Assembly: GCA_013314715.1 (NCBI GenBank) | Contig: JABUFC010000003.1 | Span: 1-64,000 of the forward strand | Origin: Bacteroidales bacterium | GTDB lineage: Bacteria; Bacteroidota; Bacteroidia; Bacteroidales; GWA2-32-17 | Reading direction: 5' to 3' | DNA length: 64,000 nucleotides | In this document: piece after piece, positions 55,239 to 58,985 of the stretch | Layout: the number at the start of each line of letters is the position of its first letter | Position numbering within the stretch: the first letter of the stretch is position 1 | Notes under the pieces: model-generated | Database searches by the model: none | Seen by the model: the letters and a program-made list of their open reading frames with translations, nothing else | What the model was told of the DNA's origin: nothing | Translations under genes and position numbers: made by a program

Positions 55239-55754
55239 ATGAAAAAAATTATTCTTTTACTTGGTTTTATTGGTATTTATGTTAGTTCATTTTCACAATT
55301 TTCATTAAATGGTGACTTTGTTATAGGAACTAAGTTTAAAGGTTCGCCCAACATTGGCTTATCTGGAGTATTAATGAAAGAAATTGATAATGGTTTTTGT
55401 GCAGGTGGTTTATTGGGATTACAATTTTATACGGGTTCTGGCATATCTTCATTTAGAATTCCAGTTATGGCAGAAGCAAGATATTTTGTAAGTGGAGGAA
55501 CAGATGGATTTTATCCGCTTGCCAATCTAGGCTTTGTACATGAAGAAAGTAAAACAAAGGGATTAATAGAAATTAAACTGTCAACTACAAATTTTGCTTT
55601 TGCTTTAGGTGCTGGAGTTAAATTTGGTAATACAGATTTTTCATTCCGATACGAAAATATTCAATACTCATTTGGACATGGCGAAGTTTTTGATTTCAAA
55701 TTAGGTTTTTGGCTCGGCGAAAGTGGTGGTAAAGGTCATAAAAGACGTAGATAA
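55239..55754 (+). CDS. Small secreted beta-rich protein, probable outer-membrane barrel
   Basis: A 171-residue protein with a signal peptide ending SSFSQ. The mature part alternates amphipathic strands with glycine/aromatic turns ('FVIGTKFKGSPNIGLSGVLM', 'GGLLGLQFYTGSGISSFRIP', 'FALGAGVKFGNTDFSFRYEN'), as in eight-stranded outer-membrane barrels of Bacteroidota. The last segment is 'KLGFWLGESGGKGHKRRR': the aromatic strand before a basic tail is unusual, since barrels normally end on an aromatic residue. Monocistronic, with its own promoter and terminator. Function unknown. Confidence 0.75.
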   Translation: MKKIILLLGFIGIYVSSFSQFSLNGDFVIGTKFKGSPNIGLSGVLMKEIDNGFCAGGLLGLQFYTGSGISSFRIPVMAEARYFVSGGTDGFYPLANLGFVHEESKTKGLIEIKLSTTNFAFALGAGVKFGNTDFSFRYENIQYSFGHGEVFDFKLGFWLGESGGKGHKRRR

Positions 55755-55852
55755 TAACATGGTTTACATTTAAAAAAATTAAGGCTAATGAGTAGTAAAT
55801 TCAAATTTCTGCGAATATTGAAATAAATGCTAACCCTAATTTAAAAATAAAA

Positions 55853-55887
55853 GAGGCTAACTCAAATAGGAGATAGCCTCTTTTTTT
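55853..55887. terminator. Bidirectional terminator between the barrel gene and iadA
   Basis: GAGGCTA (55853-55859) pairs with TAGCCTC (55874-55880), with an inner CTC/GAG stem, an A-rich tract before and seven T after. It resembles the hairpin at 22108-22132. Confidence 0.88.
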
Positions 55888-55905
55888 GTGATACATTATT
55901 ATATA

Positions 55906-57075
55906 TTATTTTTCGTAGCTACCTTTTTTTAGTATTTGAGCGTCTTTCATCATAAATTTGCCCATTGCCATTACGTGGTAAATGCGTTGGTTGTCGATGA
56001 AAACCAAATCGGCATCTTTACCAACTGCTATGCGGCCTTTCTGATGCAATTTAAGAATGTCGGCAGGGTTAGAAGTCAGCACCTTAAGAGCTATTTCGAG
56101 AGGTACACCTTCTTGGTTAACGGCATCCATCAATTCGCGGAAATTGGCAGATGGCAAGCCCATTTCGAGTTTTATCAAGTTGCCGTTTTCGTCGAATCCC
56201 GGAAGCGAACCGCAAGCATCCGAAGTAAAGGTTATTTTTTCGATGGGGATTCCTGCTTCTAGAAGCATAGGGATACATTTCGATGGTTTTACTTCGTATT
56301 CGGGGAAGTACGGATACGAACTGGTTGTAATATCGATATATCCACCGCGTTTTGCAAATTCTTTTGCCGATTCGAGGGTGTAATCGTTGCGGTTGCAATG
56401 TGTTGGGAAGAATTGGGTTAATTTAAGCATTCCATGGCTACGTTCAATAACCTCGTACATGGGTTGAAAAGGTTCTTGCTGGTCGCCTAAGTGAATATTT
56501 ACAATACCGGCTTTACTTCCTAACATGCCGCCAACGCGTGCATGTTCTACTAAGCGGAGCAATTCGTCGGTATTGGGCCACGATGACCGATGGTCGCTAA
56601 GTGCGATTTCGCCAACGCCAATCACTTCGTCGATAAGGGCAATATCGCGACCTACATCGCCGGTAATGGTTGGTGTAGGTATTTGGTACGAACCGGTATA
56701 AATCCAGCTCGAAACTCCTTCGGCACGTAAGCCTTTAGCTTTCATCAATACCGATTCAACGGTGCGGGTCATGCCATCGGTACCAAGGCAACCAATAACG
56801 GTAGTAACACCAGCTTCGACCAACATACTCAATTGCAATTCGGGGGTGCGTGTAGATGGTCCGCCTTCGCCACCCGCACCTGCAATGTGTACGTGAGCAT
56901 CTATAAATCCGGGAACAGCTTTTAAACCCTCAGCTGAAATTACTTCGCAATCATAACCAGTAGGAGCTTCTAAATTATCGCCTACGGCTAAAATTTTGCC
57001 GCCGCCTACTAAAATGTCTTTTCTGCCAATAAATTCGGGTGCATAAACATCGGCATTTTTAAATAATGTAAACAT
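55906..57075 (-). CDS. iadA: Isoaspartyl dipeptidase (beta-aspartyl-peptidase), IadA type
   Basis: A 389-residue amidohydrolase. Metal motif H61-x-H63 in 'PGFIDAHVHIAGAGGEGG'; the 'EGGPSTRTPE' substrate loop; 'GEIALSDHRSSWPN' with H162; 'NIHLGD'; 'FFPTHCNRND'; and the catalytic Asp in 'TFTSDACGS'. In E. coli IadA the bridging residue is a carboxylated Lys at the position where E156 stands here ('GVGEIAL'). Amidohydrolases with a bridging Glu are known, so activity is expected. The enzyme hydrolyses beta-Asp-X dipeptides such as those from damaged proteins or cyanophycin. It starts 17 bases after the CphA-like gene. Hand-counted lines show 43-55% GC. Confidence 0.92.
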   Translation of the reverse strand: MFTLFKNADVYAPEFIGRKDILVGGGKILAVGDNLEAPTGYDCEVISAEGLKAVPGFIDAHVHIAGAGGEGGPSTRTPELQLSMLVEAGVTTVIGCLGTDGMTRTVESVLMKAKGLRAEGVSSWIYTGSYQIPTPTITGDVGRDIALIDEVIGVGEIALSDHRSSWPNTDELLRLVEHARVGGMLGSKAGIVNIHLGDQQEPFQPMYEVIERSHGMLKLTQFFPTHCNRNDYTLESAKEFAKRGGYIDITTSSYPYFPEYEVKPSKCIPMLLEAGIPIEKITFTSDACGSLPGFDENGNLIKLEMGLPSANFRELMDAVNQEGVPLEIALKVLTSNPADILKLHQKGRIAVGKDADLVFIDNQRIYHVMAMGKFMMKDAQILKKGSYEK

Positions 57076-57092
57076 AGTTCATCGTTTTATAG

Positions 57093-58985
57093 TTAAACAT
57101 CGTATTTCTTTAAAAGTTTTTCCATTTCGTCAGTAACCAATTGTGCTAATACTTTATCTTTTTCGTCTTCAGAATAAAATGTAAAGCGGTCTATTTCATC
57201 ATCGTTTCTATAAACAATACCCTTATCTTCTTCGAGAACAATCAGTAAACCATCTTTTAGTAGTTGTTCTTGTAAAACCTTTTCTTCGGAATAACTAGGT
57301 TCGTCGAGAATAACAATATCGGCTCCTTGATGTAGAATACCGTAGTCGTAAATGTCGTCTTTAGTATGTTGGAAAATGGCAATGTTTACTTCGGGGTTAC
57401 GTAAAATAATTTTAACGTTTTGATCGTGTTCAGGGTTTTTGTAAAAATATTCATTATTAAAAAATACACCCTCATCGCTTAACGATCCAACAAATATTTT
57501 GCTATATTCATCATTAAGCATAGTTACCATTTTTTCAACCCTGGCTTGTGGAAGATAATTGCCGACGATGATGGGAATTCTGCCCTTTGTTTTTTCGTCA
57601 AAGTGTGAAAGCATTATATGACGAGGGACGTCGATACTTCCACCATATGCAGGCGCAAGGTGCATAAATACACCGGGTCCGGCATTAATTTCGATAATTC
57701 CGAAATTTCCTTCACGCCAAGATTTTGATATATCTTGAGCAAGTACATCTATTCCTAAGCATTTAACTTTAAAATAGCGTGCAATGTTTTCAACTAATTT
57801 AACATTGTCGGGGTGAATTTTAGAAGTTACGTTAATAGAAACTCCACCTGCCGAAATATTAGCAACTCGTCGAAGGGTGATTTTTTCGCCTTCGGCAGGA
57901 ATGTAGTTTAAATCTTTGTGCTGAATAGCAAGAAAGTCTTTAAGGTTGTCATCGATCTTAATTTTGCATAGTGGCGAACGCGCATTGTCTAATCTAATTT
58001 CTTTAGCATTTTCTATTTCAATCAGTTTTTCGATAGTGTCTTTGCCATTCCCTTCGACATATGCGGGAACACGTTCGAGTGCAGCAATAAACTTACCACC
58101 AACGGCTAATAAACGATGATCGGTACCGTAAATTTGTTGTTGTACTAAAGCACCTTCGAATGGAACTCCCTGTTCTTCGGCAAGTGTTACTATTTGTCTA
58201 AATGCCTTAATAGCTTCTTCAACACTTTCTATACCTGTTGTAACTCCTTGACCTTTATGTCCGGCAACAGGTTTAACTGCCACAGGGAATCCTAATTTTT
58301 GAGCTTCGGCTGCTACTTCTTCTTCCGAAAAGCAGTTAACTCCTTGCGGGGTTGGAAATCCACACATCATCAGAAAATCGCCTACCATGTCTTTAAACAT
58401 AGTAAATTCGGTGTCTTTTATACCATCGTTGTGGAAAGTGGTAGAGCGTCCACGTAATTGTTTAACTCCATAGCCCCATTGAAATTGATTTTCTTCGTAT
58501 AGATAAAAAACAGGAATATCGAGTTTTATGCCCGCTTCGATAAGTGAATAAAGGGTAGGTCCACCAAATAACGACCTGTCGAAACGAGCTTGTAAGTTAG
58601 CAAATTGTTCTTTAAAAGGGTAGTGGCTTTTATTTTCGATAGCTTGAAACCATTCACTTACAAGATAAGCAGCTGCTTTAGTAGTACTTTTATCTAAATA
58701 TTCAACCGCTATAACATATTCATCGCCATCGGTAGATATACTATAATGTTGAATAAACAAATCAATATCCATTTTAAGAACAGCCATTAGTGTTTCGGCA
58801 AATAAATCGACTACGTCGGAGTGTTTTTTATTTTTTAGTAAAGGAAATTCTTTATATACTTCTTCTACAAAATCGTTAATCGAACTTTTGCTCGAGATAT
58901 AAACATTAAAAACGCAGGCTGGCTTATTTAAATAATAGCTTGGTCCTGTGTAAAAATAGAATTTTGATAGTTGAAAATTACTCAT
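57093..58985 (-). CDS. Cyanophycin-synthetase-like ATP-grasp protein with degenerate Mur-ligase domain
   Basis: A 630-residue protein; CphA1 enzymes are about 870-900. The N-terminal domain (about 1-175) resembles the CphA N-domain, with 'FGGPTLYSLIEAG'. The ATP-grasp domain (about 190-480) looks intact: 'FPVAVKPVAGHKGQGVTTGI', 'LLAVGGKFIAALERVPAYVE', 'RRVANISAGGVSINVTSKIH' and the metal motif 'FGIIEINAGPGVFMHLAP'. After 'KGRIPIIVGN' the Mur-ligase part should show GTNGKTTT but reads 'YLPQARVEKM'. Only about 145 residues remain, including 'VKIILRNPEVNIAIFQHTKD', which mirrors the domain's D-P-x-V-D-x-A-V-L-E-T-A strand. So the second ligase site is lost, as in CphA2-type enzymes. It is followed by iadA. 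It may ligate beta-aspartyl dipeptides; the product is unknown. Confidence 0.82.
   Translation of the reverse strand: MSNFQLSKFYFYTGPSYYLNKPACVFNVYISSKSSINDFVEEVYKEFPLLKNKKHSDVVDLFAETLMAVLKMDIDLFIQHYSISTDGDEYVIAVEYLDKSTTKAAAYLVSEWFQAIENKSHYPFKEQFANLQARFDRSLFGGPTLYSLIEAGIKLDIPVFYLYEENQFQWGYGVKQLRGRSTTFHNDGIKDTEFTMFKDMVGDFLMMCGFPTPQGVNCFSEEEVAAEAQKLGFPVAVKPVAGHKGQGVTTGIESVEEAIKAFRQIVTLAEEQGVPFEGALVQQQIYGTDHRLLAVGGKFIAALERVPAYVEGNGKDTIEKLIEIENAKEIRLDNARSPLCKIKIDDNLKDFLAIQHKDLNYIPAEGEKITLRRVANISAGGVSINVTSKIHPDNVKLVENIARYFKVKCLGIDVLAQDISKSWREGNFGIIEINAGPGVFMHLAPAYGGSIDVPRHIMLSHFDEKTKGRIPIIVGNYLPQARVEKMVTMLNDEYSKIFVGSLSDEGVFFNNEYFYKNPEHDQNVKIILRNPEVNIAIFQHTKDDIYDYGILHQGADIVILDEPSYSEEKVLQEQLLKDGLLIVLEEDKGIVYRNDDEIDRFTFYSEDEKDKVLAQLVTDEMEKLLKKYDV

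Follow-up and report, generated by a model that had tools for sequence, protein, structure and literature searches.

What does a CphA-like protein without a second ligase site do beside a gene for an isoaspartyl dipeptidase, and which polymer would such a pair serve? The question is raised by a locus in the window, by which we mean the whole stretch of 64,000 nucleotides of Bacteroidales DNA that was analysed. Here, a gene for a 630-residue CphA-like protein is separated by 17 bases from a downstream iadA gene. We consider it quite likely, from sequence and modelling, that this pair belongs to a cyanophycin system whose genes are dispersed, and in which a CphA2 would polymerise and an IadA would split the dipeptide. 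The features of the locus are the following.

57093..58985, minus strand: predicted CphA2-type cyanophycin (dipeptide) polymerase, 630 aa, ATG start (479 bits to 7ta5, G-domain clade, residue map, model Z)
58566..58985, minus strand: N domain, from residue 1 to roughly residue 140, without the Cx19HxxEH hydrolase motif
57582..58565, minus strand: ATP-grasp (G) domain with conserved residues for ATP and substrate, spanning roughly residues 141-468
58251..58262, minus strand: CphA2-type phosphate loop GHKG, residues 242-245, in which K replaces H267 of TeCphA1
57537..57587, minus strand: KGRIPIIVGNYLPQARV, residues 467-483, site of the lost Mur-ligase P-loop
57096..57581, minus strand: M-domain remnant, 162 aa, without P-loop and without Mlid
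55906..57075, minus strand: iadA, predicted isoaspartyl dipeptidase, 389 aa, ATG start (TIGR01975 481.8 bits, cut-off 331; alignment to solved IadAs)

Among solved structures, the 630-residue protein matched best the CphA2 of Gloeothece citriformis (7ta5; protein residues 3-597 against 7ta5 residues 8-597), followed by the CphA2 of Stanieria sp. (8fxh; 425 bits), whereas CphA1s (7lg5, 7wac) reached only about 209 bits over a shorter aligned range. A structure model (mean pLDDT 79.7), for which 20 relatives were used, gave Z scores of 35.8 against 7ta5, over 572 residues, 33.7-34.2 against 8fxh/8fxi and 21-27 against CphA1s. In a G-domain tree, 25 sequences of the Bacteroidota type grouped with the two solved CphA2s in one clade (100/100) apart from CphA1; with two cyanobacterial CphA2 references only, the tree and the residue map give a placement rather than a full phylogeny.

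The ATP-grasp core and overall fold of CphA1 (7lg5, 7wac) are the same as those of the window protein, but the second (M) ligase site and the primer-cutting motif of CphA1 are both missing from it. Pfam detected no Mur_ligase domain, the alignment and residue map revealed neither P-loop nor Mlid in the M domain, and a motif check found no Cx19HxxEH primer-cutting motif in the N domain. Directly after KGRIP the protein reads IIVGNYLPQARV, with Pro and Gln at the positions of the M-site residues Lys499 and Thr500 of TeCphA1. Lack of the M P-loop and Mlid (PMC9427784) and of the N-domain motif (PMC9262961) are stated properties of CphA2, so a short ligase domain is what a CphA2 should have. Since its length and layout are also those of a normal CphA2, we rejected the ideas of a damaged CphA1 and of a novel truncated form. 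The cyanobacterial CphA2s (7ta5, 8fxh/8fxi) are like the window protein in domain order and length, lack the same three elements and have in common with it the GHKG loop and F/Y at position 458. By sequence and predicted structure, the 630-residue protein is a CphA2, an established type of enzyme in a phylum where it was not expected, and by analogy it would polymerise beta-Asp-Arg.

The first-pass annotation had described two open reading frames at these positions with a 17-base gap, which the coordinates bear out, and had named the neighbour an iadA-type dipeptidase, in keeping with its TIGR01975 score. Its report that the Mur-ligase P-loop is missing agrees with the Pro/Gln exchange and the Pfam result, and its estimate of about 145 residues for the ligase domain is near the 162 residues counted from RIP. 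The check that it proposed, structure prediction and alignment to CphA1 and CphA2, placed CphA2 nearest and revealed no full CphA1 P-loop. Thus, its picture of a shortened CphA without a second site holds for the lost site and the likeness to CphA2, but not for the idea of a cut-down enzyme, since this is the normal CphA2 architecture.

Next to these losses stands an apparently intact first site. On TeCphA1 numbering, with the important residues taken from PMC9427784, E215, K220, K261, R309, R323, N394, S396, D431, E450 and G456 are all kept in the window protein. H267 is replaced by K inside the GHKG loop, as in the solved CphA2s, and R458 is replaced by F (F in 7ta5, Y in 8fxh). In TeCphA1, R458 holds the incoming free Asp by its alpha-carboxylate, and E215 touches the terminal unit at its Arg side chain (PMC9427784). 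Of the 27 sequences of the group, 26 agree with the window protein at position 267 and all agree at position 458. The ATP-grasp site is therefore intact by this map, and its loop and pocket are of the CphA2 type. An iadA-linked CphA2 in a sister genome (G002, L031:1489-3390) has VVDQRKQTT where the GHKG loop should be and no longer has N394, so that it may have lost its activity or taken on another role.

The neighbouring IadA matches solved IadAs over its full length (1onw from E. coli, 8dqn and 7cdh) and keeps their metal and substrate motifs. Unlike E. coli IadA (1onw), it has Glu in place of the carboxylated Lys, as does the isoaspartyl dipeptidase of Leucothrix (PMC10206079). By analogy with the known activity of the family, the window IadA would hydrolyse beta-Asp dipeptides.

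We then considered the rest of the genome (3.0 Mb, 99.5% complete), which besides the window CphA2 encodes two more CphA-like proteins, another CphA2 and a CphA1-related protein. The second CphA2 (C16, L011:8178-10208) is 63% identical and has an intact GHKG loop, with neither iadA nor cyanophycinase as a neighbour; sister genomes hold close relatives of it. The CphA1-related protein, a reduced CphA1-like partner that we call A1r, has 746 aa (C7, about 55730-57967; L002:7728-9968), and its gene diverges from mraZ at the division/mur cluster. A cyanophycinase is encoded on C33 (198 bits, cut-off 126.6), and it shares the motifs GTSAGA, DxHF, RxR and DEDT with the solved CphBs, having T at the Q of their DQHF. 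An IaaA-type protein is encoded on C1. Neither cyanophycinase nor A1r lies alongside the window cphA2-iadA copy. Judged from these genes, nothing is missing from the degradative half of a cyanophycin cycle, but its genes lie scattered over the chromosome. No canonical Arg-adding ligase site was found in any CphA-like protein of the genome.

In relatives these genes come together. A scan of 84,980 species genomes returned 20 loci, all from metagenome-assembled genomes (MAGs) and mostly from Bacteroidales. Many loci hold operon-like gene runs, and the orders include cphB-cphA2-iadA-cphA1 (L043, and L149 from G042), cphB-cphA2-iadA (L049, L150), cphB-cphA2-cphA1 (L040, L134, L135) and cphA1-cphA2-iadA (L042), where cphA1 denotes a CphA1-related gene and not canonical CphA1. 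The same kind of operon was seen in MAGs labelled Negativicutes and Desulfobacterales (L040, L041), reflecting either horizontal transfer or a binning error. CphA2 is present in 10 of 60 genomes of the order, and these ten comprise nine with a CphA1-related gene, nine with a cyanophycinase over the cut-off and eight with iadA; in the tenth, G035, the CphA1-related gene is cut off by the contig end. Where both iadA and cphA2 occur in the order they adjoin in seven of eight genomes, and they also do so in the MAG loci L042, L043, L044, L048 and L049. Fisher tests over the 60 genomes gave p=7e-10 for co-occurrence of CphA2 with A1r (3e-6 with one vote per family; G035 counted as lacking), 1e-6 with cyanophycinase (3e-5) and 4e-5 with iadA (0.001), and iadA co-occurred with cyanophycinase at p=5e-9 (also significant when counted by family), tracking it in 12 of 14 genomes; given relatedness and MAG incompleteness, these p-values are guides and not exact probabilities. 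The pairing of iadA with cphA2 is far beyond chance and not accidental. Elsewhere in the order, genomes without CphA2 or A1r carry iadA near one or two cyanophycinase-type genes (G019:C24, G022:C153, G033:C15, G029:C84), and these look like cyanophycin-utilisation loci.

The neighbourhood survey of the iadA link that had been suggested was thus answered by the adjacency in the order. The proposal of a build-and-recycle pair proved largely right, as operons of relatives hold cyanophycinase, iadA and a CphA1-related gene. The remark that no cyanophycinase stands alongside is correct for the window copy but not beyond it: the genome has the C33 copy, and several orthologous loci have one directly next to cphA2. 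The annotation had left undecided whether the product is cyanophycin. With a cyanophycinase and a CphA1-related gene at other places in the genome, and in one operon with cphA2 in relatives, the polymer is most likely (beta-Asp-Arg)n, the nitrogen-storage compound cyanophycin.

A1r itself forms its own clade (100/100) in the G-domain tree, nearest to CphA1. Every A1r found keeps Cx19HxxEH, including the contig-cut copy of G035. In all 12 sequences H267 is replaced, R323 is changed to L/M/V and G456 to D, and S396 is changed to R/K in 11 of 12; the ATP-binding residues are kept by A1r of most genomes. Eleven of the 12 still carry the M P-loop, and Mlid is missing from A1r of the window's own genus and most others, being present only in L042 and L060; its absence from the L040 and L043 proteins, which end at or near contig ends, is uninformative. 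The window genome's own A1r has the N-domain motif, lacks the CphA1 residues H267, R323 and S396, keeps the M P-loop as GSKGKT and stops before Mlid, so that its M domain is incomplete. Outside the order, in G342 and G400, the A1r beside cphB-cphA2 no longer has the M P-loop or the known residues of the ATP-grasp site, and the N domain is the only Pfam match of the G400 protein. The CphA1-like proteins at L134:8697-10823 and L135:4931-7057 keep the N hydrolase motif; in both ligase domains their known catalytic residues are gone, which makes them candidate pseudo-ligases.

Mean pairwise identities for N, G and Mcore were 70, 66 and 78 in canonical CphA1, 55, 50 and 42 in A1r, and 44, 68 and 50 in CphA2. 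The N domain is therefore the best conserved part of A1r, unlike in CphA1 and CphA2. Between the A1r of G003 and G001, dN was 0.086 (N), 0.093 (G) and 0.209 (M), and this pattern fits selection on the N domain with relaxation of the M domain. A stand-alone N domain in G035 was ruled out, as the match runs to the end of a 7209-long contig and thus represents a cut A1r. An arrangement of complementary sites, CphA2 keeping G and A1r keeping M, is weakly tenable, since Mlid is usually missing and G042, G342 and G400 also lack the P-loop.

Across 395 genomes of the phylum, CphA1 exceeded the cut-off in 45, and none of these 45 carried a CphA2 of this type. This CphA2 was found in four (G000, G334, G342, G400), in none of which the residue check revealed canonical CphA1; canonical CphA1 was likewise absent from every CphA2-bearing Bacteroidota genome checked. 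A1r was present in all but one of them, the exception being G334, where none was found at E<=1e-20. A search of plasmid records for CphA2 returned, among the best 30 matches, CphA1-like, GshAB-like and other ATP-grasp proteins with identities of at most about 33%. Several loci (L129-L133 and L137-L148; family f69, genus g112) encode both long and short divergent CphA-like proteins, without the N motif and with loops such as PADxDGGxG where GNHGRG is expected; their polymer is possibly another one. Membership of the short f69/g112 proteins in the CphA2 group was ruled out by the different loop (mostly PADxDGGxG), the lack of GHKG and about 30% identity. A Mur-ligase-like gene that matches only the CphA1 M domain (about 476-860) adjoins full CphA1 in four places (G399:C21, G301:C18, G155:C89, G290:C1).

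These data suggest a division of labour, in which CphA2 would polymerise and A1r would cut primers. By homology, the ATP-grasp site of CphA2 would use ATP to activate the backbone carboxylate of the growing chain and then add a whole beta-Asp-Arg dipeptide. Cyanophycinase would release beta-Asp-Arg, as established biochemically for its family (PMC10206079, PMC9262961), and IadA, by its family activity, would split it into Asp and Arg. The CphA2/IadA pair would thereby decide whether the dipeptide is re-polymerised or turned into amino acids. More loosely, since CphA2 has no primer-cutting motif of its own, we propose that the N-domain metallohydrolase of A1r probably cuts the polymer and supplies primers. 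The lack of a canonical Arg-adding site among the CphA-like proteins of the genome counts against the scheme; beta-Asp-Arg may first come from import, from activity left in A1r or from an altered site of A1r. Removal of Mlid cut TeCphA1 activity substantially but not wholly (PMC9427784), so residual Arg-adding activity of A1r is possible, and the ATP residues kept in most A1r mean that it may do more than cut primers. We put forward tentatively that this two-protein system replaced CphA1 in the CphA2-bearing Bacteroidota, with A1r acting mainly as an endo-cyanophycinase and the dipeptide being external or made by altered A1r sites.

A version of this explanation, rather than an exclusive alternative to it, is that the cells only scavenge, imported cyanophycin dipeptide or polymer being re-stored by CphA2 or burnt through IadA with no de novo synthesis. 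The absence of canonical CphA1 from every CphA2 genome searched is consistent with this, as are related genomes such as G019 and G033 with iadA and cyanophycinases; however, A1r of L042 and L060, with P-loop plus Mlid, could add Arg, and most A1r keep their ATP-binding residues, so we regard pure scavenging as possible but somewhat doubtful. A beta-aspartyl polymer with non-Arg side chains is an improbable product of this clade's CphA2 and A1r. The consistently altered Asp-binding site of A1r (R323, G456 and S396), the lack of a canonical Arg-adding site in the window's genome, the T for Q in the cyanophycinase and the promiscuity of IadA (PMC10206079) would fit such a polymer, but CphA2 keeps E215, the counterpart of the Arg contact (PMC9427784), together with R323, N394 and S396, and the cyanophycinase scores above its cut-off and shares an operon with these genes in relatives. 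That IadA is a general protein-repair dipeptidase placed here by accident is very improbable: many isoaspartyl dipeptidases are encoded away from cyanophycin genes, and IadA is a promiscuous enzyme (PMC10206079), but the adjacency to cphA2 and the tracking of cyanophycinase described above argue against it.

CphA2 has been described as a specialised cyanobacterial enzyme (PMC9262961, PMC10206079), and the name has also been used for proteins of Bacillus horikoshii (PMC5532821) and Sideroxydans (PMC5178258), which may belong to this clade or to another. In the clusters of Sharon and Schmeing 2023 (PMC10206079), cphA, cyanophycinase and isoaspartyl dipeptidase occur together, as here; their survey concerned cphA1, whereas here cphA2 and the reduced CphA1-like gene take its place. 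Unlike cyanobacterial CphA2, the window type occurs in Bacteroidota, is linked to iadA and cyanophycinase and resides in genomes without canonical CphA1. Older works on CphA2 and CphA groups, by Klemke (2016) and by Fuser and Steinbuchel (2007), may already mention CphA2 outside the cyanobacteria. The combination of CphA2 and A1r without canonical CphA1 is a predicted new variant of cyanophycin metabolism. CphA2 as the sole intact cyanophycin ligase in some Bacteroidota would revise who stores cyanophycin, and how, and it raises the question of whether the polymer is made in a cell without a canonical Arg-adding site. CphA2-type enzymes, which need only one ATP site, could serve cyanophycin production from dipeptides, and the A1r series would constitute a natural record of CphA1 shrinking towards its primer-cutting domain.
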